Part shown: positions 17,441 through 38,334 of the stretch, piece after piece
Layout: each line of letters begins with the position of its first letter
Numbering within the stretch: position 1 is the stretch's first letter
Assembly: GCF_029962835.1 (NCBI RefSeq)
Contig: NC_080579.1
Location: 82,229,959-82,293,958 of the forward strand
From: Magnolia sinica
Taxonomy: Eukaryota > Streptophyta > Magnoliopsida > Magnoliales > Magnoliaceae
Length of the DNA: 64,000 nucleotides
Direction of reading: 5' to 3'
Position numbers and translations under genes: made by a program
The notes under the pieces: model-generated
What the model was told of the DNA's origin: nothing
Databases searched by the model: none
Seen by the model: only the letters and a program-made list of their open reading frames with translations

Positions 17441-17530
17441 GCCTCCCTATTTCAGCTTTAGTTTCCTGTTTTTTCTTGTAAATGTATCATGATAGGTGGG
17501 GACCATCCCTTTTTGTAGGTCCCAAGCTGA
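17441..17530 (+). other. 3' untranslated region of the outer LINE (left part)
   Basis: T-rich, non-coding sequence follows the RNase H stop. It is cut at 17530/17531 by the CACTA transposon and resumes at 38335-38416 with the A-rich tail. Confidence 0.7.
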
Positions 17531-17728
17531 CACTACTAGAAAGCAGGGCAAAGGCTATGGATAAAATCCGTAGCTAAAGACCTATGGCTACAGTTTTAGT
17601 CCGCAGCACGACCGTAGTCGTAGGTGCCGTAACAATAGGTCTAAAGGCTATGGCTACGGATTTAATCTGTAGCCATAGATTAAAATAGCTACAGATATAA
17701 TCCATAGCAATCATTTCTATAGCCAAAA
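17531..17728 (+). repeat. Left terminal and subterminal repeats of the CACTA transposon
   Basis: Contains CACTACTAGAAAG followed by repeated elements such as ATCCGTAGCTA, GGCTACGGATTTA and CTACAGATATAATCC in alternating orientation. The array is interrupted at 17729-17733 by the Athila-like insertion and continues at 29395. Confidence 0.8.
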
Positions 17729-17733
17729 GTAAC

Positions 17734-19860
17734 TGTTCACTCCCCAAGTGTAGGGTTGTGATGTAGTAATAAACTCGGTAAGACCGAGGTCGAATCCACA
17801 GGGACTGATACCTGTACGTTATCTGAAACCAAGTAGAACTAGAACTAGACTAAGATGCGATCTAAACAAAATAGAATTTAAGAAATAATTGTGGAATAAT
17901 TATCTAAAACTTTAAGGAATTCAGAGGAAGGAAACTAGGGATTCAGAGGATCCACTTGTAGAGATCAGGGAGATCTTATGCCTGCATCAAGGATTCAAAC
18001 TGAACTTACTTGATCTGGTTTTCAAGAGATGAAAGGTATATGAATTAGAATGGATTCCATCATCCTACCATGCCCAGGAGACAAAGTAAATAACGGGATT
18101 AAACTAATTGCCAACCAATCGAAAGTACATGAAAGTTAGGAAGAGTACTATCAACCAACCATGCCCAGGAGACGATGGTGAACAACAGGGCCTCCTGACG
18201 TCATAAACATCAAAAGAGAAAAAGAGATATTCAAAGCCATTGCAAACCCATTGTAATTTCAGTCACAACAGACCATTAAAGACTGAGTAAATATTCTTTT
18301 AATAATCAACTCAAAACCAAGTTCAGTTCATGAAAAGCAGGAAATAGTGTCTCCCATCTCGCTACAGGCTTCACCTCTTAGCCCTAGCTAAGAGGATTAG
18401 CTACACATGATATGGGCTAAATTCTAACTAAAAGAAAGAAGAAGAAGAAGAAAACGAAGAGGAAGAAGGAGAACCGTTTCAGCCAAGCTTTGGATCCACA
18501 CGCTGACAGCAGCCACGTCTCCTTTCAACCTCTTGCTTTCTTTTTCACGTCCAGCCCCTCCAAATTCCCTGTACTCTCTCTTTTTATCCTTCAAAGGGCG
18601 GTGGAGAGGTCGCAGTAGAGAACCGGCGCTGTTGGAGTCCCTCTGGAGAATTTCACAGCCAGCAACTATAGCTGCGTCGCAGAAACAGTTTACACAACCA
18701 CAGAAGCAGCACCGACACTCCCACTTCCTTTGCTTTCTTTGCAAAGAAGCAACGTCCCTTGGGGAATAATTTGATGAGCTACACGATGGACGGTTTGGAT
18801 CGTCCATCCGATCAAAGGTAGTGGCCCACATGATTCCGGAACATCCGGAACTCGCGGACGCGCGAAACAGGGGCCTGCGAACGCGGGGCTCGCTGTCGAA
18901 GTTGGTGGGGTCCATGATCGATTTCGGTTTCGAAATCCAGTCCGTCCGTTCGATTTCCCTCGGAATTTCGGTTGGAGATGGACGGTTTTGGTTGTCTGTT
19001 GATGCGGCCCACGGGATTAAATCAGTTGCACCTGCTTTGAACATTTTAAAACAATCTCCTTATGACCCCTGTAGCAGACATGCATGTATGTATGGCTGCC
19101 CACGGTCAACGTGGTTTTGATTTTTTCGATACCCTCTGCATGATGGATGGATTGGATCACTCGTCTGGATGATGAAAGTGGGCCTGCTAATGAAGCAGCG
19201 GACGGTTCGTGCGTGAAGGAAAACAGAGCTTCCGTCTCTGGAAAGGAAGCTGACGGGCGCGCGTTGTTTGAAGTTTTGCTCCGGTGCAGTGCACTGCAAG
19301 TGCACTTACTGCAGTGCTCGTGCAGCACTCGTGTGGCCCCTCAATGATGGTTATGCAAAATCCAATCCGTCCTTCCCCTGTATCATCTCATTTAACAGCT
19401 GATACCAAAATTGAGGCATATCCAGATATCGTGCGGGCCCCAAAATCAATGGTTTATGGGCTGATCTGTCCGTTGGGCCAATTCCACAGCGATCCAATGG
19501 ATGAAATTTTACGTGTACGGTTCATTTATGGTCTTCAGGCCACGTATGGAGTTTCGAAATGTTGGATGGTGGGAACCCTATGATCTTGCATTCTTCACCA
19601 ATTTCGGGCCTCTTTAACGTGAATGGCCTGCTTTCCTCGGATCCTTGATGCATAATTCCATCGATCTTCATCTCCTGGAGTCCGTCCCTTGCCTTAGGTG
19701 TCATCAGAGCGTTAAATCCATGCTTTTAATACTATTTTTCAGTCCACGCTCCTGATTCCACCTTGCAACAGAAACATGATTAAAATGAGATATTAAACAA
19801 TACTATGTTTGTAAATCCAGGTAACAACTGGGTCTGATATGCAATATTTGACCCTCAACA
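17734..19860 (-). repeat. Left LTR (3' LTR) of the Athila-like element
   Basis: Begins TGTTCACTCCCCAAG and ends TTGACCCTCAACA; its partner is 27254-29389. The long antisense-looking frames inside it also occur in the partner LTR and are not genes. Confidence 0.95.
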
Positions 19861-19872
19861 CAACCCCCAACC
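19861..19872 (-). promoter_or_regulatory. Polypurine tract of the Athila-like element
   Basis: GGTTGGGGGTTG on the minus strand directly abuts the 3' LTR, the position used to prime plus-strand DNA synthesis. The same sequence occurs at 2321-2332 in the LARD-like element. Confidence 0.8.
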
Positions 19873-21219
19873 AGCATTTTGCTAGTCCCGAGCAAAGTAT
19901 GCGAAAAATAAATTGAGAATTACAGGATAATTTCTACAACTCAAGGGATTTATGAAAAATAGTTCAGATACTCAAATTCTAAGATTCATGAATGTTGGCA
20001 TTACTTTTTCCTGAAATCAAGCTCATGGTAAGCTTCATAATCAAGTTCAAAATATTAGTCCATCAATTAGTATAATTCTAAATATTGAATTCCATGGATG
20101 TATAGTCCAATCTCGACTTGTCAACATTAAGATTCACCTTGATATTTAAGGATATCATTGGTAACAGATAAGAGAAATCATGATAACCCAACTTGGCTTA
20201 CACCTTATCTTTTTATTCTTTTAATTTTTGATTTTTTTTTTCATTAGGAGTAATGTCAAGAAGAGGGATCAAATCCTCACCTACAGGGAGCAAACCTAAG
20301 GTAAAGACTGTACACCCAACTTTTTCACATATCATTCATGGGGAAACGAATCCTCATCTATAGGGAGCAAACCTATGGTAAAGACTGTTCGCCCAATCCA
20401 TTCAATTTCTCAAGTTGGTTCCTTTCATGTTTAGTGATTACCAAGTTAATCCTTTAATATCGAACTGAAACCTTCATATGCAAGCGAGATGTGTCCTGCG
20501 AATTCATGACTCAACCAATGTTCACAATTCTAATAATGGATTAACAATTCAAACTTAGCTGTGAAATTTAATAGATAACTGAATCCAAGAGTCATGAAGT
20601 ACCAACATCACGCATCTTGAAATTCTAAGTGCCCTAGATGGCCTGTCAAAATCACTTCGACTTCATTAAAAATCCTGAAAAATTAAAAATTTTCACAACT
20701 TTTGCTCAAGACCAAGAAAACACTGATTAGGAAACCTAATCTCCCACCCCCAACCTAAAAGCTACATTGTCCTCAATGTAAAAGAAATAAACATGCGATG
20801 CACCTGGGACAACAGAAATATAAGAGGAGTGATGGAAAGATAGTACCTGGACGAAAGAATCAAGAGGCTTTCCAAAGATATCTATGTAAGAGCGGGTCAG
20901 CACAAGAGAGAAACCAACAAAAGTACTAAAATAAAATCCTACCTATACCACTTTCGTAGGTGCTCTCGATTGCATTTAGCGTATGCAACAAGCCTTTAAA
21001 CCCCTAAGTTACCCCTAGTGGACGAGTTGTAGTCTCGTGAGGGTTTGCAGTAATGTTACCCACAAACATTGAACTGACTAATGATAAAAATGACATGAAA
21101 TGAAGAACTGGGTTGCCTCCCAGGAGCGCTAAGTTTACCGTCTTCAGCCAGACAAATAAAGCAACTACCCCAGTCCTAAGAAAATAGGAAACCTACCTAT
21201 ACCTCCATCAGACTAGGAG

Positions 21220-24200
21220 ATCAATCCTGGTAAACAGGATCAGTCAGAGGCATGGACATGTCCTCTGAATCAAATTTCTCGACAAATGGTTTCAATCGAT
21301 GTCCATTGACTTTAAACTCCTTGCCATTGTCGGGATCTCTTATCTCAACGGCCCCATATGGAAAAATAGTGACAACAATGTAAGGGCCGGTCCAACGAGA
21401 TCGAAGCTTACTCGGAAAGAGATGTAATCGAGAATTGTACAAAAGGACCTTCTAACCAGGCGTGAATGATTTTCACAAAATTTGTTGGTCATGAAATGTT
21501 TTCATCTTGTCCTTGTAAATTCTCGAATTATCGTACGCATCATTCCGGATTTCTTCAAGTTCATTCAATTGAAGTTTGCATAGCGAGCCAGCGTTGTCCA
21601 GATTGAAATTAAGATTTTTGATCGCCCAGTACGCTTTATGTTCCAGCTCCACAGGCAAGTGACAAGCTTTCCCATAGACAAGTCTAAAGGGAGACATTCC
21701 AATAGGGGTTTTAAAGGCAATACGGTATACCCATAAGGCATCGGTCAATCGGATTGACCAATCCTTACACTCTGGGTTAACCGTTTTCTCCAAAATGTGT
21801 TTGATCTCCCTATTGGAAATCTCAGCTTGTCCACTTGTCTGTGGATGGTATGGGGTGCTCACCTTATGAGAGATACCGTATTTCTTCATTAAGCTCTCAA
21901 ATGGTTTATTGCAAAAGTGTGAGCCCCCATCACTAATGATGGCTCGAGGCGTTCCGAATCGAGAAAGGATTTTTTCTTTTAGGAATTTAATGACCGTGCG
22001 ATGGTCATTCTTTCGACACGGAATCGCTTCGACCCATTTAGTGACATAATCCACGGCGAGCAAAATATACAGATTCCCAAACGATTGGGGGAATGGTCCC
22101 ATGAAATCGATGCCCCAGCAATCAAATGCTTCAATGATAAGGATGGGATTCAAAGGCATCATATTTCGACGGGATAATGCTCCCAATTTCTGACAACACT
22201 CATAAGCTTTGCAAAACTCATGAGTGTCCCTAAACATAGTGGGCCAGTAAAAGCCACACTGCAGAATCTTGGTCGTGGTCTTTTTAGCAGAAAAGTGACC
22301 ACCACAGGCCTCTGAGTGACAGAAGGAGATGACGCTCTGATGCTCATCGTCTGGTACACATCTCCTTAGAATTTGGTCTGGGCAATATTTAAATAAATAA
22401 GGATCATCCCAAAAAAAGTTGCGCACCTCGATGAAGAATTTCTTCTTATCTTGCGCAATCCATTGTGTCGGTATGGCACCTATAGCAAGATAATTAGCAA
22501 TATCAGCGAACCAAGGTGAATGGGAAACTCGGAACAGTTGTTCATCAGGGAACATGTCGTTGATATGAGTCGCCTCAAGGGAATCAGAGGTATTAAGGTG
22601 AGAAAGGTTATCGGCCACTACGTTCTCTACTCCCTTTTTATCTTTAATTTCTAAATCAAATTCTTGGAGTAGAAGGATCCATCGTATCAAACGGGGCTTA
22701 GAATCATTCTTAGAAAGAAGATACTTAAGTGCCGCATGATCTGTGTAGATAATGATTTTGGATCCGATCAAGTAGGACCTAAATTTGTCCAAGGCGAACA
22801 CTACAGCTAAGAGTTCCTTTTCCGTAGTCGAGTAGTTTACCTGGGTAGAATTTAAAGTTCTACTTGCGTAATGAATGACGTGGGGCCGCCTATCTTTTCT
22901 CTGGCCTAGGACCGCTCCAAGAGCATAATCAGAAGCGTCGCACATAAGCTCAAAAGGAAGGCTCCAGTCGGGTGGCTGCATGATAGGTGCAGTGGTTAAC
23001 GTGCCCTTAAGCTTGGTGAAAGCTTCCTGGCACTGCTCAGTCCACTCGTACGGAGCATCCTTTTGAAGAAGATTACATAAAGGACGAGAGAGAAGACTAA
23101 AGTCCTTTATGAATCGCCTGTAAAATCCTGCGTGTCCTAAGAAGGATCGCACGTTTCTGATGTTCTTGGGTGGAGGTAGGTTAGAGATAAGATCGATTTT
23201 TGCCTTATCTACCTCGATTTCTTTGGACGAGATGATATGCCCAAGGACAATTCCCTTCTGAACCATGAAATGGCACTTCTCCCAATTAAGTACCAAGTTC
23301 TTTTCTTCACATCTTTTCAGCACACATTTAAGACTTTCCAAGCACTTGCTGAAAGATGGACTATAAACAGAGAAGTCGTCCATAGTCCAAATGGCATCCT
23401 TCGATAGGCAAAGGTGCCGTAGGGACATGTAAATGTGGTCTTTTTCTGGTCTTCAGGGGCTATCTCTATCTGGTTGTAGCCCGAATACCCGTCAAGAAAA
23501 CTGTAATAGGAATGACCAGCTAATCTTTCAAGGATCTGATCAATGAATGGTAAAGGGAAGTGATCTTTTCTCGTGACGGTATTCAACTTCTTGTAGTCAA
23601 TGCACATTCTCCAACCAGTAGTGACTCTAGTTGGCACGAGTTCATTATTAGCATTGGCTACGATGGTGATTCCGGACTTCTTAGGGACCACTTGAGTTGG
23701 ACTCACCCATTGACTATCAGATATAGGGTATATAATACCCACGTCTCATAGTTTAAGAACCTCGGCCTTAACCACTTCCTTCATGTTTGGATTTAGTCTA
23801 CGTTGTGGTTGCCGAGCGATTTTTGCATTATCCTCAAGGTATATGCGGTGAGTACAAATCAAGGGATCGATTCCCTTGAGGTCCGCTATCGTCCATCCCA
23901 GGGCTCCTTTATGCTCAATGAGAGTAGATATGAGCATACTCTCTTGTTCTTTCTCCAGGTGGACAGAGATCACCACCGAGTATGTCTCATCTTGACCTAA
24001 ATATGCATATTTCAAATCAGAGGGCAAAGGTTTTAGGTCAAGCTTCAGCGGCTTGAGGTTAGACGGTAGAGGCACTACATCGGTTTATGGCAATTCTTCA
24101 AATTGTGGCCTCCACCGGTTAACTTCAAGTACCGGTGAAGTATCAAGCAAGGCACACGTCTCCCTAATCATGTCATCATCAAAATCATGGGAGTGGGCCA

Positions 24201-24600
24201 GGCACGTCTCCAGATGGTCGGAGGATAAGGTCAGCGGTGTCGCATCTTCCACGAAAGAGTCAATCATGTTAATGTCGTGGAAATCGTCATCATCCTCTAA
24301 GTTGCTGCCGTTATTGAAAAAAAATGTTTGACTCCAATGTCAAATTTCTAAAAGACATAGTCATGATACCATTCCTACAATTGATAATTGCATTTGACGT
24401 GGCAAGGAATGGGCGACCAAGAATGACGGGAATCTGAGTGCTCATGTTGTTGATGGGTTCGATGTCCAGGATGATAAAATCTACAGGGTAGTAAAATCTA
24501 TCGACCTGGACTAACACATCCTCAATTATCCCTCTTGGTACACGAACAGAGCGATCAGCAAGTTGTAGTGTGGTTAGGGTGGGTTTTAATTCACCCAAAC
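21220..24600 (-). mobile_element. pol: pol region of the Athila-like element: protease, RT, RNase H, integrase
   Basis: In element order: an aspartic-protease-like stretch near 24.3-24.6 kb (VILGRPFLATS), then reverse transcriptase near 23.3-24.0 kb (MCIDYKKLN, LDGYSGYNQI, PFGL, MDDFSVY). RNase H follows near 22.6-23.0 kb ([27 protein letters not shown]). Integrase spans about 21.2-22.5 kb: zinc-binding region with [10 protein letters not shown], then [17 protein letters not shown] and [10 protein letters not shown]. No chromodomain is apparent at the C-terminus, consistent with Athila. The proteins would cut the polyprotein, copy the RNA and insert the DNA copy. As a fossil element, individual breaks are not listed. 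Confidence 0.92.
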
Positions 24601-24719
24601 CTAACTGTTTGTATACCGAATAGGGAATCAGATTGACGCTCGCTCCTAAGTCAAGAAGTGCGTGATCAATTCGATGGTTCCCGATTACACATGATATGGT
24701 TGGGCTACCGGGATCCTTG

Positions 24720-26550
24720 AATTTCTATGGCACGTCTTGCTTCAGGATGGCACTCACTTTCTCAGTCAAGAAGATTTTCTTTTGAATAATTTTCCGTCTT
24801 TTGGTCGTGCATAAGTCTTTCAGGAATTTGGCATATGAAGGTATCTGTTTAACGACATCAAGTAGAGGAATGTTGACTTTCACCTGTTTCAACACCTCTA
24901 GGATATCCTGAGAGTTAGAGAGAGGTTTTGGTGAAACCAACCGTTGGGGGAATGGAGCAACTGGCTTCTCTAGAAGTTCCGGTTCTACTTTTTGTGGGGC
25001 ATCACTGGATCCATCATTGTTGTCTTCTTCTGGTTCTTGAGGCTTTTTGGGCCTAACCGGAAGAGTTTTATCAATGATCTTCCCACTCCTAAGAGTGGTG
25101 ATAGATTTAGCATGCCCCATCTGATTTGAAGAGCTGGGATCATTGATCTCGTACTGCGGTTTAGGATTGGGGAGAGGTTGTGCAGGAAGCATCCCCTTTT
25201 CTATAACCGTCATACGAGAATCTATCTTTTGCATAAAATCTGTGATTCCCCGCATTGCCTGAGCCAGCTCTTGTATGGAATTTTGAACCGGTTCCTCTTG
25301 AGGTTTCACTTGATTTGGATTTTGATTGAAGAAACCTGGAGGAGTAGCCGTCTGTCCATTCCTCCAACTAAAGTTTGGATGATTTTTCCAGCCAGGGTTG
25401 TATGTATTGGAGTTAGGTCCAATAAAAGGTCTTTGATAATTATTTACGGCATTGGCTTGTTCATTCAACACTCCTCGAAAGGCAGGTATTGTAGGACAGT
25501 TTTCAGTTGTGTGAATGTTGCAATCACAGATGCCGCAAACAATTTCATTGACCTTATCCTTCTTTCCTTCCATGGCCTCAACTTTCCTTATGAGCGTAGT
25601 CACTTTATACTTGAGATCATCCTCTTCTTTCAAGAGATATAATCCACCTTTCTCCTTTGATTGAGTCGGCCTGGACGTGGTGTTCGACTTTGGATAATAG
25701 TCCCAAGATTGTGTTTTTTCAGCCAGACTGTCGAGGTAGTCCCATACCTCGTCGACATCTTTAGTAATGAACTCTCCATTACACATTGTCTCGACCATTT
25801 GGCGCATGGAAGATGTCAGTCCATCATAGAAAAAATTTGTAATGCGCCACGTTTCAAATCCGTGTTGTGGGCATGAACTGACCAAATCTTTGAACCTTTC
25901 CCAACATTCGAAGAATGTTTCATCTTCCTTTTGGGCAAAGTTCATGATTGCTTTTCTGAGGGTAATCGTTTTATGATGTGGGAAGAATTTTTTTATGAAT
26001 TCCCTCTGCATGTCGTTCCATGTGCCAATGGATCTAGGACGCAGTGAATGTAACCACGTCTTAGCTTTCTCTTTTAAGGAAAAAGGAAAGAGTTTCAGCC
26101 TAATTGTATCCTCAGATACATTAGGAAAACATAATGTAGCTATTATCTCATCGAACTCTTTCAAATGTAAATATGGACTTTCAGATTCAAGTCCATGGAA
26201 TTTGGGAAGGAGTTGGATAACTCCTGGCTTGATGTCCATTTATCCTGTGTTTTCAGGAAAAATCATGCATGAGGGCGTACTCACTCCCGCCGGTTGTAGA
26301 TAATCTCGTAAAGTACGAGGCGGGGGTGCCTGTTGCACCTCATTTTCATCTTGGGTATCCTCCACCCTGGGTGGAAGTAGAGGAGGTTGGTCTTCAGCCA
26401 TAACCTCAATTAACTCAGGGGATTTCGAACGGTATCTAGTCCTGCGATGGATAGTCAACCCCTCAACCAATCCTCCTTCAGTCAAGAGACGTCGAGTGTT
26501 GTCACGGGCCCACTTGTGCATGAAAACACTCGCAGCCCTCAATTAAAAAC
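24720..26550 (-). mobile_element. gag: gag region of the Athila-like element
   Basis: The retrotransposon-gag domain is recognisable: LPKFHGLESESPYLHLKEF, then LKLFPFSLKEKAKTWL, WNDMQREFIKKFFPHHKT and ECWERFKDLVSSCPQHG. A Cys/His cluster (CGICDCNIHTTENCP) follows, then a low-complexity Pro/Asn/Gln segment. Gag forms the virus-like particle that packages the element RNA. It lies directly downstream of the 5' LTR and an A-rich, roughly 700-bp leader. The best-conserved part is an open stretch of about 500 codons, fitting the young age. Confidence 0.9.
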
Positions 26551-26559
26551 CTAATCCTA

Positions 26560-27229
26560 AGAAAGGAAAAGAAAATCTAGAAAGAAAGAGAGGGAGAGTT
26601 GGAAAGGAATTACCAAATTGAAGCTCCTAAGTTAAGGACCTGCAAAATAAAACAAAAATAAGTTAGATTCTAAAAAGGAGAAAAACAATCCTTTAAAAGA
26701 AAGATAACAGCAAACTGATTTCTAAAAGAAAGTGGAAACTTCTAAAATGAATTAGGAAAGTCCTAAACTAGAAAATAAATTACTAAAAGAGAACTGAAAA
26801 ATAGGAAGTAGAGAAAGAGGGTACCGAATTAGAGATTTCTATCTTAAAGGCCTACAAAATAGGAAGGTTAGTTTCTAAACAAAAATTCTAAAAATAAATT
26901 AGGAAACAAATTAGATTCTAAGATTAGAAAGTTACTAAAAATAAAAGTAGAAAGTTAATTAAGAAATAACCTAGTTTCTATTTCCTACAGATGAGAGGAT
27001 ACTAGAATTAGAAAATTTCTAAGATTTAAACCTTAATTCTAAAAACAGAAAAAGTAGAGAATTTAGGAAAGAATTACCAATTTAGAAATTTATGTCAGGA
27101 TCCTACAAAACAGGAAACAAGTTAGTTCTAAAAATCAAATAGAAATAAAAATCTAAAACTAAAGTTAATAAAATCCTAATCTCAAACTAATTCTAAAACT
27201 AATTAATTTCAAAGAATCGTAACCGTCAG
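26560..27229 (-). other. Untranslated leader of the Athila-like element
   Basis: Between the primer-binding site and gag lies an A-rich leader with repeated AGAAA/CTAAAA units (about 26565-27200). It holds no supported frame. A similar leader sits at 5380-5720 in the LARD-like element, another link between the two. Confidence 0.6.
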
Positions 27230-27247
27230 TCCCCGGCAACGGCGCCA
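27230..27247 (-). promoter_or_regulatory. Primer-binding site of the Athila-like element
   Basis: TGGCGCCGTTGCCGGGGA on the minus strand, 6 nt inside the 5' LTR. This is the well-known plant gypsy primer site, usually assigned to tRNA-Asp. Confidence 0.85.
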
Positions 27248-27253
27248 AAAACT

Positions 27254-29389
27254 TGTTCACTCCCCAAGTGTAGGGTTGTGATGTAGTAATAAACTCGGTA
27301 AGACCGAGGTCGAATCCACAGGGACTGATACCTGTACGTTATCTGAAACCAAGTAGAACTAGAACTAGACTAAGATGCGATCTAAACAAAATAGAATTTA
27401 AGAAATAATTGTGGAATAATTATCTAAAACTTTAAGGAATTCAGAGGAAGGAAACTAGGGATTCAGAGGATCCACTTGTAGAGATCAGGGAGATCTTATG
27501 CCTGCATCAAGGATTATGGAATTCAAACTGAACTTACTTGATCTGGTTTTCAAGAGATGAAAGGTATATGAATTAGAATGGATTCCATCATCCTACCATG
27601 CCCAGGAGACAAAGTAAATAACGGGATTAAACTAATTGCCAACCAATCGAAAGTACATGAAAGTTAGGAAGAGTACTATCATCCAACCATGCCCAGGAGA
27701 CGATGGTGAACAACAGGGCCTCCTGACGTCATAAACATCAAAAGAGAAAAAGAGATATTCAAAGCCATTGCAAACCCATTGTAATTTCAGTCACAACAGA
27801 CCATTAAAGACTGAGTAAATATTCTTTTAATAATCAACTCAAAACCAAGTTCAGTTCATGAAAAGTAGGAAATAGTGTCTCCCATCTCGCTACAGGCTTC
27901 ACCTCTTAGCCCTAGCTAAGAGGATTAGCTACACATGATATGGGCTAAATTCTAACTAAAAGAAAGAAGAAGAAGAAGAAAAAGAAGAGGAAGAAGGAGA
28001 ACCGTTTCAGCCAAGCTTTGGATCCACACGCTGACAGCAGCCACGTCTCCTTTCAACCTCTTGCTTTCTTTTTCACGTCCAGCCCCTCCAAATTCCCTGT
28101 ACTCTCTCTTTTTATCCTTCAAAGGGCGGTGAAGAGGTTGCAGTAGAGAACCGACGCTATTGGAGTCCCTCTGGAGAATTTCACAGCCAGCAACTATAGC
28201 TGCGTCGCAGAAACGGTTTACACAGCCACAGAAGCAGCACCGACACTCCCACTTCCTTTGCTTTCTTTGCAAAGAAGCAACGTCCCTTGGGGAATAATTT
28301 GATGAGCTACACGATGGACGGTTTGGATCGTCCATCCGATCAAAGGTAGTGGCCCACATGATTCCGGAACATCCGGAACTCGCGGACGCGCGAAACAGGG
28401 GCCTGCGAATGCGAGGCTCGCTGTCGAAGTTGGTGGGGTCCATGATCGATTTCGGTTTCGAAATCCAGTCCGTCCGTTCGATTTCCCTCGGAATTTCGGT
28501 TGGAGATGGACGGTTTTGGTTGTCTGTTGATGCGGCCCACGGGATTAAATCAGTTGCACCTGCTTTGAACGTTTTAAAACAATCTCCTTATGACCCCTGT
28601 AGCAGACACGCATGTATGTATGGCTGCCCACGGTCAACGTGGTTTTGATTTTTTCGATATCCTCTGCATGATGGATGGATTGGATCACTCGTCTGGATGA
28701 TGAAAGTGGGCCTGCTAATGAAGCAGCGGACGGTTCGTGCGCAAAGGAAAACAGAGCTTCCATCTCTGGAAAGGAAGCTGACGGGCGCGCGTTGTTTGAA
28801 GTTTTGCTCCGGTGCAGTGCACTGCAAGTGCACTTACTGCAGTGCTCGTGCAGCACTCGTGTGGCCCCTCAATGATGGTTATGCAAAATCCAATCCGTCC
28901 TTCCCCTGTATCATCTCATTTAATAGCTGATACCAAAATTGAGGCATATCCAGATATCGTGCGGGCCCTAAAATCAATGGTTTATGGGCTGATCTGTCCG
29001 TTGGGCCAATTCCACAGCGATCTAATGGATGAAATTTTACGTGTATGGTTCATTTATGGTCTTCAGGCCACGTATGGAGTTTCGAAATGATTGGATGGTG
29101 GGAACCCTATGATCTTGCATTCTTCACCAATTTCGGGCCTCTTTAACGTGAATGGCCTGCTTTCCTCGGATCCTTGATGCATAATTCCATCGATCTTCGT
29201 CTCCTGGAGTCCGTCCCTTGCCTTGGGTGTCATCAGAGCGTTAAATCCATGCTTTTAGTACCCTTTTCCAGTCCAAGCTCGTGAATACACCTTGCATCAC
29301 AAACATGATTAAATCAGGCCGTTAAACAATACTATGTTTGTAAATCCAGGTAACAACTGGGTCTGATATGCAATATTTGACCCTCAACA
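27254..29389 (-). repeat. Right LTR (5' LTR) of the Athila-like element
   Basis: Matches 17734-19860 almost throughout. It should carry the element promoter, although I cannot pick a TATA box with confidence. Confidence 0.95.
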
Positions 29390-29394
29390 GTAAC

Positions 29395-29515
29395 TACAGC
29401 TACAGATAGTATTTGTAGCTAAAAGTGGTGCTATGTCCGTAGCAATATTTAGAATTTAATAACAGCTATGGTTGTAAGATTACCAGCTACGGTCAATATC
29501 CGTAGCTATTACCTA
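29395..29515 (+). repeat. Rest of the left subterminal array of the CACTA transposon
   Basis: Directly after the GTAAC duplication the CACTA subterminal motif continues (CTACAGATAG, TATGTCCGTAGC, CTACGGTCAATATCCGTAGC). Joined to 17728 it makes one array, showing that the Athila-like element landed inside the CACTA. Confidence 0.8.
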
Positions 29516-29529
29516 CATTTAAAAGAAAT

Positions 29530-29650
29530 TGTAATCATTCATTCATTCAATTACCAGATGCATAATCATTCATTCATTCATTCATTCAATTACAATCATT
29601 CATTCACTAAGTCAATTACAATCATTCATTCATTCAATTCAATTATAATT
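29530..29650 (+). repeat. Tandem CATT/ATTCA microsatellite
   Basis: Repeated cattcattcattcaatta units; low complexity, not coding. Confidence 0.8.
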
Positions 29651-29699
29651 ATAATAATGTTGAAAGTACAAATCTTGGTGAGTCTGTGTGCACTCGCAT

Positions 29700-29848
29700 A
29701 TGGCTAGGTGATTCCTTCAGCCACCATAGATAGAAAATGGATGCGAGTATCAATAGTCCACCCGCACATCCGACAGCTATACTGAAACTTGTCCTGTGCA
29801 TCTTCTGTAATTATATTCGAGGGCAAACCACCACTAGAGGACTCTGCA
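29700..29848 (-). pseudogene. Exon-like fragment in the CACTA, origin not recognised
   Basis: The minus strand has a splice-acceptor-like TTATGTTGCAG at about 29840-29850. One frame then gives about 46 residues to a stop, including FQYSCRMCGWTIDTR. A second frame, after a second acceptor-like TTACAG, gives a strongly hydrophobic segment (SIAVGCAGGLLILASIFYLW) ending WWLKES, typical of a single membrane span. Only one can be the true frame. The second looks like a receptor-type transmembrane exon, but I cannot name the gene. Confidence 0.3.
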
Positions 29849-30654
29849 ACATAAAAACAAAGAATCTGTCAATTGAATAATGATGAAAACTAAATGCAAG
29901 GAAAACATAAAATTCCCCTAATATAAACTGAATTAATGCTCCAAACAACGTTCATGCATTGCTAAAGTACCGTTGAAGCAAGCAATCATTCACTACACCA
30001 CACATTACATAGAAGTACAACAAGTTCAAAAACACCTGCAGATGATTCATACATACCTTATTATAAGAATCAAATACCATAGCATTAGTCAAGTGATGAA
30101 AATTTAAAAATGGAAAGGGAATCAAGAGTGGTAAAACTGAAAATATGAAGAGAGATGAAAGTGCATGTAATTGGCAACTTTCAAAGAAAAGAAAAAAGAA
30201 GTAACTAATAAAGCAGCTTGTTAAGCCCACATGCACCTCATACAAGGCCACACTACTGGCCTACCACTTGCATGGGAAGTCTGACATGTGCATCAGGTGG
30301 GCTCAATGTGAAGAAAACCTAGAGAAACTCCCAAAGAGGACCATGTCCTCTATATATCAATGAAGATAAAAAAGCATTTTCCAATACAGACAATTGTTCT
30401 TTTTTTTAAAAAAGGTGATATTAGACATACTCAGTGTTGCAGCCATACATTGATACATCTCAAAATATTGCACTGCCCATTTACAAATATTCCTGAATAT
30501 TATCGATACATGCGACCCGTATCAACGATATCTCAATTCAGAATATTCAGTTGTAGTTGAGCACTTGAGCATGAACCGAACAATCTAGCCAAATCAATTT
30601 TTAAACTTGATCATTTGATTTAGTATGTGAATTTCACAATCAATTTGAGACACC

Positions 30655-30790
30655 TTATATTAACTTGAGAGATGTAACACAAAAGATAACGCCAATGAGT
30701 GAACATACTGCCACCACAACAAGGATACATATCACTTTCCCTTCACCATTTTTGAAGAAAACCAATTGAGCTGCAAAAACAGAAAAACAA
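30655..30790 (-). pseudogene. Exon-like fragment with a C-terminal membrane segment in the CACTA
   Basis: On the minus strand a good polypyrimidine-AG acceptor (GTTTTTCTGTTTTTGCAG) at about 30775-30795 precedes AQLVFFKNGEGKVICILVV, then a hydrophobic stretch and a stop (SLKLI*). It looks like the last exon of a membrane-anchored protein captured from the host. The family is not recognised. Confidence 0.3.
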
Positions 30791-30852
30791 GAACATGGAT
30801 AAATAATAGCAAAACTAGTAATCCAGAAATATTTCAAATTTCATATAAAGCA

Positions 30853-30892
30853 TAGACCATCGTCGTAGGTGCCGAGCCAATAGGTCTAAAAC
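30853..30892. repeat. Internal copy of the CACTA subterminal sequence
   Basis: gtcgtaggtgccgagccaataggtctaaa matches gtcgtaggtgccgtaacaataggtctaaa at 17609-17645 near the left end. This supports the view that 29.4-38.3 kb belongs to the same transposon. Confidence 0.55.
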
Positions 30893-31361
30893 AAGTAATC
30901 CAGAAACTTGTAAATTTTTCATTAGAAATTCTGAAAGGAATGAATTTACAAAATGGTCCACATTCAACAATCAACATACACATTGCCCAGCTGATGAGTG
31001 GATGGGCCTGATTTTTAGACCACATAATTTACATGCTTGGGCCCACCTGATGCATGGCATTAATGTGAATGTCCAATAGATTTGCCTGATAGGTCCATGT
31101 AGGCACATGTAAAGGTGTATGTGGACATAAGAAACTCTTGACTTCAACATAAAACAGGAGGGAGAACCCTTTGGATCAATCATGATAATAGAGCAACTGT
31201 TGTATTCAAATTTTCAATAGTTAAATCTAGTAAATAAACAAGTTGATGATTGTAAAAGAAGTTAATCATTCAAAACTCTTTCAGCCATGTGAAAAGGACC
31301 ACATCCTTTATAAGGACCGTTCTTAATCTAGTTTCAAGCTTTAAATAAAATGGTTTGGTAC

Positions 31362-31515
31362 AGAAGAGCAGCTTTATCTTGCCAACGACATTTTCTTTTG
31401 CTACATTTATTGTGTGAGTTGCTCCTAGCATCTTTGCATTACGAAGTTTATCATCTTGAACATCAACAACAATAATTTCAGAAGCCCCAAATGCCCGTGC
31501 TATCAGTAAACAACT
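31362..31515 (-). pseudogene. Captured fragment of a zinc-type (MDR) alcohol dehydrogenase-like gene
   Basis: The minus strand reads IARAFGASEIIVVDVQDDKL, then RNAKMLGATHTINVAKENVV and GKIKLLF. This is the coenzyme-binding Rossmann segment of medium-chain, GroES-like zinc alcohol dehydrogenases: the beta strand ending in the NAD-ribose-binding Asp (VVDVQDDKL) and the ..A..LGATH.IN motif. I recognise it as closest to the plant GroES-like alcohol dehydrogenase family of the At5g63620 kind. Only about 50 codons are present, without the zinc-ligand domain. It lies inside the CACTA and is a captured piece, not a working gene. Confidence 0.7.
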
Positions 31516-31624
31516 GGGAGAAGTAATTTAGTCATAATGATGTAAACCTGAGACTTAAGATTCTATAAAAGCAGAAACGTTATATTATATGCCATCAACT
31601 ATGCTGAAGGAATTTGAAAAAGAA

Positions 31625-31754
31625 ATATACGGCATTTACATGGGTCGTTACCGGCATCATGGTAGAGTTGTCATCATTATTTTTATTTTTTTTATACGGC
31701 ATTTACATGGGTAGTTACCAGCATCATGGTAGAGTTGTCATCATTATTTTTACT
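31625..31754 (+). repeat. Tandem duplication of about 65 bp
   Basis: acggcatttacatgggt.gttacc.gcatcatggtagagttgtcatcattattttta occurs twice in a row (from 31628 and from 31695) with very few differences. It is a recent local duplication inside the CACTA. Confidence 0.85.
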
Positions 31755-31794
31755 TTTATTTAAAAAAAAAAGTCAAATCACTGTCCCAGCTAAT

Positions 31795-31925
31795 TTGATC
31801 AACAGCGTATGCATTTGCATATCAGCAATAATATCCAATTCAACATCATCATCACCTCAGACTTGTCCCAGGTATTTGGAGTCAACTTCGGGAATCCTTT
31901 TCAAAACAGAATCACAAATTAAAAA
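31795..31925 (-). pseudogene. Possible exon fragment in the CACTA, not recognised
   Basis: The minus strand gives a coherent-looking run with one in-frame stop: VLKRIPEVDSKYLGQV, then GDDDVELDIIADMQMHTLL. Codon pattern and composition look coding, but I cannot assign a family. It could be chance. Confidence 0.2.
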
Positions 31926-32145
31926 AAAAATTAAAAAAAAAGTTAGGTAAAATAGAGTATATATCCTCATCCCCTTAGAACATGTAGATAAACGAAACTC
32001 TGGATAAAAAATAGTCACTTAGCCAACAGAGACTGGCAGCATCTGAACCAAACAAGAACAAAAACCAAAAACCAAAAAAAAAAAAAAGACAAAATGGACA
32101 CCAACTTACCTACTACTTGAATCTCTCCATTGCCAATCAGACACC

Positions 32146-33090
32146 TCAGAGCTTGTCCTCAAATTCAGAAAGAGGTGTCATCTGCTCCTTCAGACCCTTC
32201 CTCTTTTGGATATCAGCCACCAACTGCCCTGCCTGCGATCCCGCCTCCATTGGATCAGACGACATCATGTCCCAGTGATCAAACACGCACTGTGGGAAGG
32301 CCTGTCCAGATGTTGCTGCCCTTAAAGTCCCTCAGAACCCAAACGACTCAATGACAGGTAGGTACGCCTTGATGTTATAGAGAGGCGTGCCAGGCCTCTG
32401 CATTTCCTCGAAGACATGACCATGCTTTTGGTTCAGGACACCATAGATGCCACCGAGCGCTTGTTCAGGTGCCTGTATCTCCACCAAATAGACAGGCTCC
32501 AAAAGCCTAGGTTTCTCAATTAGCTGGGAGGCATATATGACCCTTCTTGCTGTCGGGATGATCTGTCCACTACCCCTGTGGATTGCATCAGCATGAAGAA
32601 CAATGTCATAGACCTCAAAGCATATGCCCCACATGTTTTCTTCAGCCATGCTCCTTCCTTTGATGCCCATTAGAACCCAGCCACAGCAGAATCCTTGATT
32701 TCATTCAGGTACTAAACTCCCTTGTACATGTCAACAACCATATTTGGGCCAGTAGTTTCAAGTCTAAAACACCAGATCTTCTTGGCAAGATCCTTGTCCC
32801 ACCCAAACTCTTCAGATAGGTTCTTTGAGCGGGCTTTTGGGTCATCCCTAGGGTCGATACGCCCCTCGTCAATGCCTCAGCAAGCCATCTTCCAAGGGAC
32901 AGGCCTCCGTGTAGAGACGATTGTGCTTGTTAGGGGACTTGTTCATTACAGTCCTGACTGACTTCTCAAGCACCGTCTCACAGAAAAAGACAACAAGATC
33001 CGAAACAAGAATCTCAGCCCCGCCCATGAAATCTTCTTGCAAGTCCTTCAAGCAAATCTCGAGGTGGAGCTCTCTACAGATTTCTGCCCC
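32146..33090 (-). pseudogene. Captured 3' part of a translation elongation factor 2 gene
   Basis: About 315 codons of eEF2 run to the natural stop (GAGGACAAGCTCTGA at 32146-32160). In order: [19 protein letters not shown] near the start, then [15 protein letters not shown], an [15 protein letters not shown] region, and [20 protein letters not shown]. Next come [19 protein letters not shown] (the domain IV tip whose His becomes diphthamide), [27 protein letters not shown] and a C-terminus like [13 protein letters not shown]. This covers domains III-V; the GTPase domain is absent. eEF2 drives ribosomal translocation. A few frame changes and changed residues break it. No poly-A tract follows the stop on the minus strand, arguing against a simple processed copy. 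The fragment sits in the middle of the CACTA. Confidence 0.9.
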
Positions 33091-33476
33091 AAAAAGCCCT
33101 TAAGAAACCCAGATTTACGACATACCCCACAAACCTCTACCTAAAACACCTGCTTTTTTAAATGTAGTAAATAACTCACAAATTGCATGTAGACCATAAC
33201 CCATGCACTTAGCAGGTTAGAATTTATTCACTGGGTGAACCATAACCTATGAACAAAAACAACAAATATGATAAAAGCATTTCCCACATTTTTGCAGCAT
33301 TGGACCCACATTTTGTTGGCGTCACTGTCTTCTCATTTCTACTCCACACTAAAGCTCTCATTTCCCATGAGTTTTGGAGCATAGACAATAACTTTTCATG
33401 CAACTGGGAAAACTAAATGAGGGAGCTTGGAAATGTGGCTACAAATGCAGACTAATAGGAAAGAAAGATATCCTAC

Positions 33477-33547
33477 CAAAGCTGGAAATGAACTGTCCGA
33501 TCTTCAAGGTACATAGTCTTTGACATGAAATCAATGCCTATTGTAGC
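33477..33547 (-). pseudogene. Captured exon of a RABH1/Rab6-type small GTPase gene
   Basis: The minus strand shows acceptor CTGCAG (33548-33553), a 71-bp exon reading ATIGIDFMSKTMYLEDRTV then HFQL, and donor GTAGGA (33471-33476). The peptide covers Rab6 switch I effector residues (ATIGIDF.SKTMYLEDRTVRLQLW in the family). Rab6-type GTPases act in Golgi trafficking. Both splice borders are kept, so the piece came from genomic DNA and not from mRNA. No other Rab exon is visible nearby. Confidence 0.85.
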
Positions 33548-34435
33548 CTGCAGTTCATAGAGCAAAGTTGCAAGGTATAAATTCGTGTATAAATTCTGAG
33601 TTCCCTGGTTTCCCTATACGAAAACAGTGTGGTCGAGAATACAATCTGTATACAATGCTAGAAACACTCGACAAAAACCAATGGTGGTTGATCCTCAGGC
33701 CAAGTCACATGAAATAAAGAAGCTGTTGGTTCAGTGCCATGGTCCCACGAGTCATCCACAGAACTCGACTAAAGATTCAACAAATTGGTCTAGGTAAATT
33801 TTATTTTTAAAAAAAAAAAAACAACAAAAATCAGGTGGGCATAGGCCAAAAATGGCCAGTTTGACCCACTTCCTATCAGTACATTCTGCCATCTAGACTT
33901 TATGCCTCATGCCAAACAGCTCTGCTTCCACAAAATGCAGATGAGGTTCCAATACAACGTTAGCTTTCCTCTGGAACATTGATGTTCATCATTAGCTGGG
34001 TTGGATCATCCAATGATAGTGATATATTAAAGGACATGACAAATTGCTTAAATTTGATATAGGTTGTACATTTTAGCAGCTACTACACGGATATCATTGA
34101 CGTAGGACTCATCAAAAGAATACCATATCTAGTAAGAAGTATGAATAATGCAAAGAAAATGAATAGCAGAATCAATCACTAGGATAAGAAAATCCACGTG
34201 GCAATGACTATTGACATTGAGTGACATCTACCTGAAACTTGGAAAAAAGAATTTGAAGATTGCATTACAAGCCCACGTGCATACTCATGTGAGCAGAAAG
34301 AAAAACCTCGAACTCAACTAAAACATGATTTTTTTTTCCTGAAGTGTACTTAAACATGAAGAGGCATCTATGGAAGAAAATGAACCCTACAAACATCTTG
34401 GTTGGATCCCGATACTTAAGACTCCATACTACACT

Positions 34436-34455
34436 ACGTCTTCTTCTTCTTCTAT
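34436..34455 (+). repeat. Short TTC microsatellite
   Basis: A run of cttctt units inside the CACTA; low complexity. Confidence 0.6.
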
Positions 34456-34750
34456 TCATTAGTTAAAGCTAAGGGGAATGCCATGTTGCATTTCCATGGT
34501 GAAACAATAGTGTCACTGAAATAACCAAGTTATGAGTTCCTTGTTGGATCGACACGTTGTATTAATTTTTAAGATGAAAAGTACCCACTAGCATATTCCT
34601 TTAAAAAAGAAAGAAATGAAGAAACTAACCACTAGCATATTGCAACTTGCAACACCAACTGAACAGATATAAAAGCTCACAAAAAGCTATGACATGATAA
34701 ATAAAGAGGCATCTATGGAAGAAAATGAACGAACCAAAGAAGGCACTTAC

Positions 34751-34822
34751 AAATACTGTAGATGTTCAAGTTTTCCAAGTTCAGGTACTAGATGGCCTGA
34801 TAAATTCGAATTTCCAAGGTCC
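34751..34822 (-). pseudogene. Captured LRR exon of a SERK-type receptor kinase gene
   Basis: The minus strand has acceptor CTTCAG (34823-34828), an exon of exactly 72 bp, and donor GTAAGT (34745-34750). It encodes [18 protein letters not shown] followed by EHLQYL, one leucine-rich repeat of the SERK/BAK1 co-receptor family, whose LRR exons are typically 72 bp. No kinase exon is present. Like the Rab exon it keeps its splice borders and was captured from genomic DNA. Confidence 0.8.
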
Positions 34823-35476
34823 CTGAAGAACAAGAGCATCATAAGATAAATAAATAAATGTGTACAGCCAAGATTTCTTTCTTGATATGCACAAAAATTA
34901 ATTTTCTAAAAAGGTCAGATAATACAATATGAACCCTACAAACATTAGCAGACATTGAACTTAGGAAAAATCTAAGGTACAAGAACACCACAGCGGCTCC
35001 AGCCCTCAGTGTGAACATGAGTTTTGCTTAAACGATTCCAAAACTGAAAATATCATCACTCTCTTTGAAAATAAACCACTAAAATGGTTCCCCAAACTTT
35101 AGCAAAGAAAAAGGATTAAAGAAGGTTAGTCATAACATAAGACATGGTACGAACCAATTCAAAACCATGCCTACATTAGTTTTCCAATATACATATATTG
35201 GCATCATAACCAATGTTTTAAAATCCAAACACAATCTAAACCTGTTTCTGTCAGCAATTCAGTCTCAAACGCTCCAACTGCTAGCCCAACCAGTCCACCC
35301 AGCCATTGCATCTACCGAACCAATACAATCATGACACTGCACCATACAACAGCTACAAACTCAACCCTGAATCTACCCAAAACTCAAGAACAATTCATCC
35401 TAAAGATTTGGAACCAAATCTTTGAGTCTCTAGGCATAGTTAATCTTGCATAAGGTGGCAAAGGATAAACTCTACC

Positions 35477-35690
35477 TCCTTAAGGGCTCCTTTGGAAGGA
35501 TCATACATGTATTCACTGAATAAGATAGCTCAAAGATTGCAGGGCCATCCAGAGATGGAAGATCATGCTTCTTTCTAACTTTACACTTCCCTTCTATCAT
35601 CTCCATTGGCACATTGAGTGTTTCTTCACTGTAATACACTTGCCAAGAATCATAACCACCCTCATATTTGCCAAAAATGTCAGAAAAAAA
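35477..35690 (-). pseudogene. Captured fragment of a MET1-type DNA (cytosine-5) methyltransferase, BAH domain
   Basis: The minus strand reads DSWQVYYSEETLNVPM, then EMIEGKCKVRKKHDLPS and LDGPAIFE. After a one-base frame change it continues ILFSEYMYDPSKGALKE. This fits the second bromo-adjacent-homology (BAH) domain of plant maintenance DNA methyltransferases (..YYSE..VPVEMIEGKCEVRKK.DLPS..PAIFEHIFFCE..YDP.KGALKQ). About 65 codons are present and the catalytic domain is absent. The BAH assignment is from memory of the family; other BAH proteins are less likely. Confidence 0.6.
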
Positions 35691-36256
35691 AAAAGCAGTC
35701 CCGATTACATGAAACGTCGTAGATGAGAGGGGTCTCTTAAAGAATCTGCCAAGTGTAGAGCTGGACACAAGCCTAGCCAACTTATACAAGATCTAACTTG
35801 TAGAAGTCAAAACATAGACTAAAAATATATAAGTAGGATAGCTAGGACTGCTTAAGTTGCTCAAGAAGCAGATTAAAAATAGATAACTAAGATGTGAGAT
35901 GCGAGGCTTCATGCAATCTCAGGATGGCAAGAGAAGATCAGACTAATGCATTTCAACAAACTCTAAATATAACAAACCATTGAAAATATTAAAATTAGAA
36001 AGGCACTTCCTCTTTTTTAAAGAGGCAAAAAGGTACTTTCTTTTTTTCTTAAGGGAGAAGTACTTTTCTATCAAAAGACTTGAACAATTAAGAATCCCTT
36101 ATGAATTCATATGTACAGTAGGTCAATTGTTTAAATGTATAATCATACAACTAAAGAATCATTATAGTGCATCCCAGCATTGCATGTAAACATCGATGAT
36201 GCATGCAAATTAGAATTTAGCAAGTTCTAATGCCAAAGCAGAAAATCCATGGAAGC

Positions 36257-36365
36257 ATACCGGAGACATCCCTGACAACCACTTTGTAACGACAGTAATA
36301 TCCTGCCGCCACTCATGTTCACACTGCCAGCAGGTAGCATCCCATACAAGATTTACAGAACCCTG
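36257..36365 (-). pseudogene. Exon-like fragment, possibly replication protein A large subunit
   Basis: The minus strand has CATTATTCAG before and GTATGC after a 109-bp segment. In two frames it shows CKSCMG, WQCEHEWRQ and YYCRYKVVVRDVSG. The Cys pairs followed by a Y.CRYK..V.V.DVSG stretch recall the zinc-ribbon OB-fold at the C-terminus of RPA1. The reading needs a frame change, so the call is weak. Confidence 0.3.
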
Positions 36366-36509
36366 AATAATGCCAGAACAAAATGCATTAAAGGTGGAAG
36401 ATGTAGCACTGAGAAAATAGACACCACGCCTCATGAAAATAAATAAACGTATACCACCTGAGAATAAATAAATAAAGAAAAAAAACTAATAAAAAAAAAG
36501 TACTCCATC

Positions 36510-36669
36510 CAGAGTTACAACATACCCAAAACAAACTCTTCATAGTCCACATGTTGAGGTATTCTGACCATTTTAACTGTCCATATTCTTTGAAGTACCA
36601 TGAATAAGCTATGGTCCCATAATCACATTTCAGTGATACTCCTGACCTTTGATTTCTGGAGTCGAGCAT
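36510..36669 (-). pseudogene. Exon-like fragment in the CACTA, not recognised
   Basis: Two overlapping minus-strand frames look coding (CDYGTIAYSWYFKEYGQLKW and KMVRIPQHVDYEEFVL). I cannot place either in a family. It lies between the possible RPA piece and the 5' exon-like region of the CACTA. Confidence 0.2.
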
Positions 36670-37565
36670 GAGCCACAGGAAATTTCAATCTATTAAATTC
36701 ATCTACACATAGTGATGGTAAGGATCATGCATTCAATGTAAAATGCTCACAATTTCACTTATAACATAGGACCTACTAGAACATAGATGGTTTTGATCAT
36801 CAGACCAGCACAGCATGTGGGCCCACGAATGGAAGATTTTCAAATGCAGGTAAAAGCTGTAAATTAATTACAACTAACATTTACAGGAAATTTCAACATC
36901 CAAACAGGCCCTATAATCCATTTACCAGCAATTGATTTATGACTTGTAGATTTTATAGCATCCAAGCGACACCTAAATCAAATCCAAACGCCCAAAAAAA
37001 AAAATATCTAACACCAAAACATTAAAAACCTAAATAAAAAAATGCATTGTAAAATGGGATATTACTTATAGTAAATAAATAAATAAAAAGCTCTGGATGG
37101 GCAAATGTTGGCGCTGATCGGTGGAGGTGGCAGCATTGGTGGAGTATAGAGGTTACAAAGTGGATTACAACAGCGGTGGTTGCAGACGAAGGCTGCAGTA
37201 ATGGGGGTTGTCTCCATATCTGTGCAATCAATAACAATTACAAATAGAGAGCAAACAGATGCTACAAATCAGCCACTCCTCCAACCCCATTCCAACTGTA
37301 CTTGAGACCAAAATTGTTCTCTCGAATCTGGAAGGTGAAATCCCTAATTCTAAAAATTCTCAAATTCCCAAAATCCTAAAATCCCCACCTTGTAAAATCA
37401 GAAAAACCTAAATTCAAGGTCCACATTCAAATCTGTAAGCCCTAAAATCCCTAAATCCCTAAATGAGGGTCCATTTTCAAATTGGAAATCCACAAATTAC
37501 TAAATCCCCAAATTCATAAATCAACATTAACATTGAGATTGAGAGAGAGAGAGAGAAATACCTCA

Positions 37566-37843
37566 CCTTCGTGAATCTGATTTAATCAAGCTTCAGAGAG
37601 ACAGAGGGAGGTCATGATTGAGAGAGGAATGAAGGTGGTGCGTGGGTAGGGAGGGCCTTGGACCACCACTCGGCCAACGTCAGTTGTCTGAACGAGTCCC
37701 TCACCAAGGATGGGCAGGGAGAGAAAGAGAGAAGTGGGGAGAAGATGGAGAGAAAGCAGTAAGAGGAGAGATGTATTTCCATGTGTGGGCGCGAGAATGA
37801 AAAAAGCAAGCGGGACCTTTTTCTTATGGGCGCAGACGCCCAA
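37566..37843 (-). promoter_or_regulatory. Likely 5' exon and leader of a minus-strand CACTA transcript
   Basis: Reading the minus strand, a C/T-rich leader-like stretch (about 37600-37790) leads to AAG followed by a donor-like GTGAGG near 37566 and a CT-rich intron start. A frame of 85 codons (MGVCAHKKKVPLAFF...) spans it and ends before the donor. The position just inside the right CACTA end and upstream of all captured exons would suit the first exon of a chimeric transcript. This is inference from layout. Confidence 0.35.
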
Positions 37844-37914
37844 TCGAGATAAATCCCATTTTTTTAATGTGCACGGACGCCCAATCGAGACAAATGGTCA
37901 TGTTAGGGGCTCCG

Positions 37915-38230
37915 TGTGGCCCACCACGATGTATGTCATTTATCTGGGCCGTCCATTCACTTCAACAAATTTTTTAGGGATTTCTCTTAAAAAAGGAGGC
38001 AAATAGAAGGCTCACATGGACCACACCATAAATCAACAAAAGACACTTAATCTCCATTGTTTCCTATGGTGTGGTCCACTTGAGCTTTCAATTTACCTAA
38101 ATTTTGGAGCTAATGCATTAAAATGAGCTATAAAAATGGATAGGCGGCTTAGATTAAACACAAAAAATTGTGGTGGGTCCTATAGAACTTCTAACGGACC
38201 ATCAATTTGTATGTGTGATGTGGTGGGGAC
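37915..38230. repeat. GGGCCCACC-type palindromic repeat inside the CACTA right end
   Basis: Starts gtggcccaccacgatgtatg and ends gtatgtgtgatgtggtgggg, inverted relative to each other, with the internal landmarks ggctcacatggaccacacc and ggtgtggtccacttgagctt. One of about eight copies in the window. Confidence 0.75.
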
Positions 38231-38234
38231 GAAG

Positions 38235-38334
38235 TATTTAGCTACGGTTTAAATCCGTAGCAAAATCGCTACAATTTATATCCGTAGCTAAAATCTCCAA
38301 TTATCCGTAGCCTTTACTCAATTTTTTGGTAGTG
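38235..38334 (-). repeat. Right subterminal array and terminal inverted repeat of the CACTA
   Basis: Repeated TAGCTACGGTTTAAATCCGTAGC and ATCCGTAGC units, ending TTTTTTGGTAGTG at 38334. Confidence 0.85.

Follow-up and report, generated by a model that had tools for sequence, protein, structure and literature searches.

A probable multi-copy Pack-CACTA transposon family in Magnolia sinica carrying pieces of five or more unrelated host genes

Introduction

The capture of several unrelated genes by DNA transposons has so far been argued from limited cases. Tgm-Express1, a CACTA element of soybean, is non-autonomous, spans 5.7 kb, and holds fragments of five unrelated host genes together with their exons and introns (Zabala and Vodkin, 2007; PMC1947982). 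The Tpn1 family of Japanese morning glory, in which putative autonomous members have been named, averages 7,081 bp and is described as flanked by 3-bp target-site duplications (TSDs), fourteen of them with a mismatch (PMC5105172). The Pack-CACTA elements of Arabidopsis, maize, and rice combine pieces from several loci, those of maize drawing on the most distinct loci, and their growth was proposed to proceed by tandem insertion and re-mobilization, with the newer DNA inside (PMC8903248). CACTA capture was also described on wheat chromosome 3B, where the presence of one gene in two CACTA families was read as DNA exchange (PMC4290129). Herein, we analyzed a 64,000-nucleotide (nt) stretch of the Magnolia sinica genome (C7:82229959-82293958, hereafter the window), in which an earlier note had recognized a CACTA transposon with pieces of host genes at 17531–38334.

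Like Tgm-Express1, this element is a non-autonomous CACTA with unrelated host gene pieces. Tgm-Express1, as reported, was found in one mutant allele and its chimeric transcripts were shown, whereas the Magnolia element, of about 9.15 kb, has dispersed complete copies and candidate donors in the genome and is known from its sequence alone. It resembles Tpn1, by description and not by sequence, as a multi-copy CACTA family with conserved termini and internal DNA replaced by captured genic regions. While the worked examples of growth in PMC8903248 are short PIF and Mariner elements with one or two pieces, the present family combines pieces of five or more named host genes with ladders of breakpoints on either arm and with one family member inserted into another. 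This kind of element has precedents in soybean, morning glory, maize, and wheat, and the Magnolia family is an added member rather than a novel kind; its value lies in an assembly record that is unusually readable among such patchworks. Since many copies carry different subsets of the same modules and candidate donors can be found, the order and mechanism of capture become directly testable. Literature searches assuming Magnolia as the host listed no publication on this CACTA element.

Results and Discussion

Termini, insertion site, and overall structure

The interval 17531–38334 is best explained as a Pack-CACTA, a CACTA transposon that is non-autonomous and present in multiple copies, a reading to which we assign a probability of about 0.92. 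It is supported by the CACTA termini, the joined flanks found elsewhere, host gene fragments with source loci, and complete copies on other contigs. The genome searched comprises 1.84 Gb in 127 contigs, and nearly all matches listed fell on contigs C1–C19; in the DNA searches at most 40 candidates were scored each. Twenty family loci were taken out with their neighborhood for comparison, from the matches to the last 835 nt of the element. The features are as follows, with individual loci denoted by L numbers and strands given where assigned.

17528–17530: left target site TGA, read directly; partner CGA at 38335–38337, one mismatch; joined-flank matches
17531–17733, plus strand: left terminus of the CACTA, with terminal inverted repeat (TIR) CACTACTAGAAA and subterminal GCTACGGAT repeats; L013, L019, L025, L016, L020, and L026 have a related terminus
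17734–29389, minus strand: nested Ty3-type long terminal repeat (LTR) retrotransposon, not part of the CACTA; LTRs 17734–19860 and 27254–29389; TSD GTAAC at 17729–17733 and 29390–29394
29390–29953: left-arm module
29954–30854: second left-arm module, ending at a common breakpoint, 30854
31273–31527, minus strand: MDR (zinc-binding alcohol dehydrogenase) exon fragment; Pfam and PDB matches, 21 places matched
31626–31759: 67-bp unit in tandem; L013, L019, and L025 align as with one unit
31983–33074, minus strand: 3′ coding part of eEF2 and 3′ flank, with frameshifts and stops; intact donor on C1
33076–33709, minus strand: Rab6/RABH exon (about 33476–33550) amid non-coding DNA; PDB match and genome matches
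33727–34085: dispersed repeat piece, parts of it 80–96% alike to other places
34081–35147, minus strand: SERK-type leucine-rich repeat (LRR) exon (34750–34824) with flanking non-coding DNA, presumed introns; PDB match and genome matches
35144–35336: piece also at C18:22578426; genome match
35325–35646, minus strand: MET1/DNMT1-type BAH exon with neighboring DNA; 96–98% alike to its closest match outside the family, on C2
35897–36464, minus strand: piece also at C14:76644765-76645570, gene unnamed; genome match
36466–36742, minus strand: piece also at C11:58938281, gene unnamed; genome match
36743–38334, plus strand: right arm with subterminal repeats and right TIR; its last 835 nt were matched by the 40 candidates scored of 4,120

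The left end CACTACTAGAAA begins at 17531 and its inverse TTTTTTGGTAGTG finishes at 38334. Allowing one mismatch at most, the 9,148-nt element query contained 13 occurrences of GCTACGGAT or its complement, versus two in 42,000 nt from elsewhere in the window, and all 13 motifs lay close to the ends, no farther than about 320 nt from one or 94 nt from the other. The TIRs and subterminal repeats by which Pack-CACTA elements are recognized were thus both present. Among the six family copies with a readable left end, four showed perfect 3-bp TSDs (GAA, GAT, ACT, and ATA).

When the flanks 17381–17530 and 38338–38425 were joined (238 nt) and searched against the genome as an empty site, all 20 candidates were scored: two were the window's own halves, and the other 18 all crossed the join. 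The best two matched 219 of the 238 nt at 89–90%, and the 13 weakest, short and 73–83% alike, derived from a dispersed repeat. That the joined flanks are matched across the join elsewhere supports one insertion between 17531 and 38334. Since an RVT_3 reading frame stops 91 nt upstream of the CACTA, the target was probably the tail of a long interspersed nuclear element (LINE).

The Ty3 insert accounts for 11,656 of the 20,804 bases in the interval, which leaves about 9.15 kb for the CACTA proper. It contains gag, protease, reverse transcriptase, RNase H, and integrase between paired LTRs with a 5-bp TSD. The two LTRs are 97.7% alike, with a Kimura two-parameter distance (K2P) of 0.019, lower than the K2P of 0.033–0.085 that separates the window element from three complete CACTA copies over nine segments; these copies (L013, L019, and L025) are without the insert. 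The Ty3 insertion is thus younger than the CACTA. The earlier note's claim of a single CACTA at 17531–38334 is borne out by the ends, the subterminal repeats, and the empty site; the younger retrotransposon inside went unmentioned there. The note had also seen no transposase, in agreement with our finding that the longest stop-to-stop frame in 29300–38400 is one of 122 aa, in the eEF2 piece, and that the left end has only 203 nt, although transposase profiles were not run on every short frame. A frame of this length indicates that the element holds no intact transposase.

Helitrons have neither TIRs nor TSDs and insert between A and T; here, CACTA TIRs were present, and the 3-bp TSDs described above flank family copies. 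We nevertheless considered that a Helitron or Pack-MULE, both well-known carriers of gene fragments in plants (PMC4290129; PMC1947982), carries the gene pieces and that the CACTA-like ends are those of another element overlapping it. Such a superposition appears highly improbable, given that in L013, L019, and L025 this cargo also lies between related CACTA ends, two of the three having 3-bp TSDs, that the joined flanks match elsewhere, and that no inverted repeat of at least 60 nt was found within 17531–38334.

Host gene fragments and their source loci

All five host genes named in the earlier note were recovered by profile or PDB-sequence matches, and all five pieces lie on the minus strand, as it had stated for the fragments. 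The eEF2 piece matched Pfam EFG_C (2e-11) and EFG_IV (1.7e-5) as well as eEF2 in PDB (1.7e-46), and the MDR piece matched ADH_zinc_N (6.5e-10) and benzyl alcohol dehydrogenase in PDB (6e-6). The SERK-type LRR piece, without a Pfam hit, matched SERK1 in PDB (1.8e-8; best single stretch 2.7e-5). For the Rab6 piece (PDB Rab-6A, 2.2e-9; Pfam Ras, 0.003) and the MET1/DNMT1-type BAH piece (PDB DNMT1, 4e-4; Pfam, 1.7e-5), the profile scores were under the Pfam cut-offs, and their identities thus rest on the PDB matches. A zinc-finger or LIM identity for the frame 36213–36485 was not accepted (Pfam, 0.024; PDB, 0.3), and no gene identity was assigned to the C14, C11, and C18 pieces or to the frames 29652–29810 and 30658–30840.

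The eEF2 piece has a clear source in an intact eEF2 gene on C1, which has an 827-aa open frame without a stop and is 94% alike in DNA over 938 nt. Among the 27 matches, it was the only one combining high identity (90% in protein) with a frame longer than 329 aa. Over 31983–33074 the DNA identity to this gene was 93.1% with gaps and 94.7% without, and the alignment continued beyond the stop codon. The SERK-like candidate source C7:10063689-10064689 matched 34081–35147 at 89.4% with gaps and 95.3% without, over the exon as well as non-coding DNA to its left and right. Because the captured pieces include non-coding flanks, capture took place at the DNA level, from genomic DNA and not mRNA; the flanks are presumably introns.

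For the Rab6-like piece, 13 protein matches were obtained, of which 10 were assigned to the family by position and three were other loci (C4:6505586, C2:7490241, and C6:7255495). The preferred candidate, C4:6505586-6505771, is 96% alike over 33380–33566 (186 nt); C3:106892431 (L046) was rejected as the parent owing to its decayed exon. The candidate source of the MET1 piece, C2:24405527-24405848, matched 35325–35646 at 96–98%. C5:64974971 (L048) was rejected as the MET1 parent, as its exon stops half way and the left-arm module 29640–29953 lies about 1.5 kb away; it is probably a smaller family element. For MDR, 19 of the 21 matches were on family copies, and C4:25571957-25572645 (96%) is a donor candidate only. 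The rightmost pieces were more diverged from their candidate sources (C11, 0.088; C14, 0.069 and 0.091) than the C18 (0.061), eEF2 (0.055), and SERK (0.049) pieces. The search for parent loci proposed in the earlier note thus yielded an intact eEF2 gene and candidates on C7, C4, C2, C14, C11, and C18, while no MDR parent was identified.

Family copies and shared modules

The last 835 nt of the element gave 4,120 first-look candidates in the genome, 40 of which, when scored, yielded 103 match rows; the copies occupy unrelated sites, as expected of a mobilized Pack-CACTA. Three of the 20 fetched relatives (L013, L019, and L025, at other sites on C3, C16, and C17) were complete, with every module present in the same order between related ends. 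A further copy, with a presumed left end, is implied by match positions at C13:81733499-81755407, where about 13 kb of inserted DNA interrupts it. The conserved order makes it extremely doubtful that a gene-poor region with unrelated pseudogenes and repeats from independent insertions was misread as one unit, even though repeats abound in the window and one stretch of the cargo (33727–34085) is itself a dispersed repeat. Transduplication, as the earlier note had proposed, accounts for these complete copies, which share both ends and fragments, and for source loci elsewhere; neither an ordinary unduplicated locus nor a lack of similar parent genes, the outcomes that the note had set against its own proposal, appeared in this genome.

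Other relatives shared only subsets of the modules. On the right arm, L028–L031 have only 35647–38334 in common with the window element, L020 has 37162–38334 and the left end, and L032 only 37776–38334. In a tree of 18 rows, rooted at the midpoint only and comprising the window and 17 of the 20 fetched copies (L020, L024, and L032 dropped), L028–L031 were separated from the remaining 14 rows with 100/100 support. On the left arm, 12 places matched the query 29640–30600 only to about 29945–29953 (40 of 315 scored; other modules are possible elsewhere), and 15 places ended at 30854 (40 of 172 scored), seven of which were also among the matches to the former query. L041, L042, and L044 have the left arm to 33393 and then different DNA, and L036 has it up to 34085; multi-gene blocks are hence common to members that differ beyond those blocks.

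Several observations weigh against the Pack-CACTA interpretation or its details. The triplets flanking the window copy, TGA and CGA, agree in two of three bases and form an imperfect target duplication, and L019 and L026 showed no TSD. An intact gene was read for the eEF2 source only, and L048 and L046, once taken for parents, are decayed pieces. The C4 Rab match stops at base 33566, exactly where the family copy L026 does, so that the C4 locus could itself be a family copy and is a candidate only; since the DNA searches scored 40 candidates at most each, closer donors may have been missed. The C13 copy and L024 only seem short, as each of them is interrupted. L017, L021, L022, L023, and L027, broken at 33660, grouped with L018 in a supported inner group of the tree, and their break is therefore probably a derived deletion. 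Some short copies are thus probably deletions, and the ladders by themselves do not prove a direction.

As a separate observation, TTTAGG hexamers on either strand were enriched (48–257 per 10 kb) in L014, L016, L017, L018, L021, L022, L023, L026, and L027, and also in L024, L029, and L031; in L016 and L017, the two scanned, they form degenerate telomere-like arrays of about 3–4 kb. In the window element, the two strands contain 1 and 10 of these hexamers. Captured satellite arrays within CACTA have been described for Chenopodium (PMC8978399).

Assembly of the cargo

The nested subsets of modules on both arms fit inward growth by fusion of related elements, a model of neighboring or nested elements set out in PMC8903248; the greater divergence of the rightmost pieces from their candidate sources was counted on the same side. 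In this scheme, the element would be moved in trans by a putative autonomous CACTA recognizing the shared ends. Two related elements would insert close to or within one another, their outermost ends would then act as a single unit, and the DNA between them would turn into cargo; whole cargo blocks could afterwards be exchanged among family members. The arrangement that fusion needs was seen in L024, where, at about position 2150, a second family member begins within a few bases of 36291, and the sequence of the first picks up again some 15.5 kb farther on. L024 and L026 have the 50 nt beyond the right end in common, a flank that was either duplicated with the element or is the same repeat hit twice. 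In a tree of the eEF2 piece (13 rows), the window, L013, L014, L019, L025, and L035 were split at 97/96 from the parent, L036, L038, L039, L041, L042, and L044, which would fit the block being present in other elements before it met the MET1–SERK right arm.

The main rival to fusion is that the same element gained its cargo after excision, when gap repair switched templates and the interrupted synthesis copied ectopic gene DNA. Adjoining pieces indeed have their matches on different contigs and meet with little overlap, and all five recognized pieces are on one strand. At three junctions the alignment ends overlap by 4–12 bases, and at two a single base is left unmatched, a pattern that could result from polymerase switching or end joining. 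The bases shared at the eEF2/Rab junction (0, its right side being judged against the decayed L046) and the SERK/C18 junction (about 3) do not decide between the two routes. We regard template switching as a tentative possibility, since the multi-gene blocks that the window type shares with L041, L042, and L044, and the family member inside another in L024, fit fusion or recombination directly.

Open frames and selection on the eEF2 piece

Compared with its parent, the eEF2 copy in the window has three 1-nt deletions and three stops, and its frame is broken. Open eEF2 frames of 310–329 aa were found in L041 and L042 and one of 252 aa in L044; these three share a 24-nt in-frame deletion, are 98–99% alike next to the eEF2 piece, and form a young subfamily. 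The ratios of nonsynonymous to synonymous substitution rates (dN/dS) against the parent eEF2 were determined for 12 copies. Nine copies with frameshifts and 2–4 stops gave values of 0.24–0.39, while L041, L042, and L044 gave 0.22–0.25, at the low edge of the range of the broken copies. The open frames are thus explained by youth with no need of selection, which might nonetheless contribute, and purifying selection on the eEF2 piece was not accepted. Although values of 0.2–0.6 were read as purifying selection in the account of wheat chromosome 3B (PMC4290129), the visibly broken copies observed here imply that a low dN/dS by itself is no proof that captured genes function. The captured pieces are most likely without a coding function.

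The MET1 BAH exon beyond the family

A search with the BAH peptide, in which all 88 candidates were scored, gave 71 matches, 17 of them assigned to the family by position (16 and the decayed C5 piece L048). The remaining 54 places lay outside the CACTA family at 74–89%, many with identical scores. In the one outside locus that was read (L052; C8:59104330-59104860), the BAH exon matched Pfam BAH above the cut-off (2e-9) and adjoined an oppositely oriented NF-YC exon (PDB NF-YC3, 1.5e-10; without a Pfam hit). This MET1/NF-YC mosaic means that at least one other mosaic has the same exon, and this locus together with the repeated identical scores suggests that the 54 places form one amplified family. 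That the spread of the MET1 piece is adaptive for the elements, their transcripts or small RNAs acting on host MET1 and weakening the silencing of the carriers, is very unlikely.

Other repeats in the window

Repeated blocks at 183–7955 were about 74–82% alike to the Ty3 insert. The direct repeat pairs 44246–45176/49956–50873 and 51106–52336/62785–64000, 84–91% alike, are probably other retrotransposons, and self-matches overlapping at many offsets marked 56733–57349 as a diverged tandem array.

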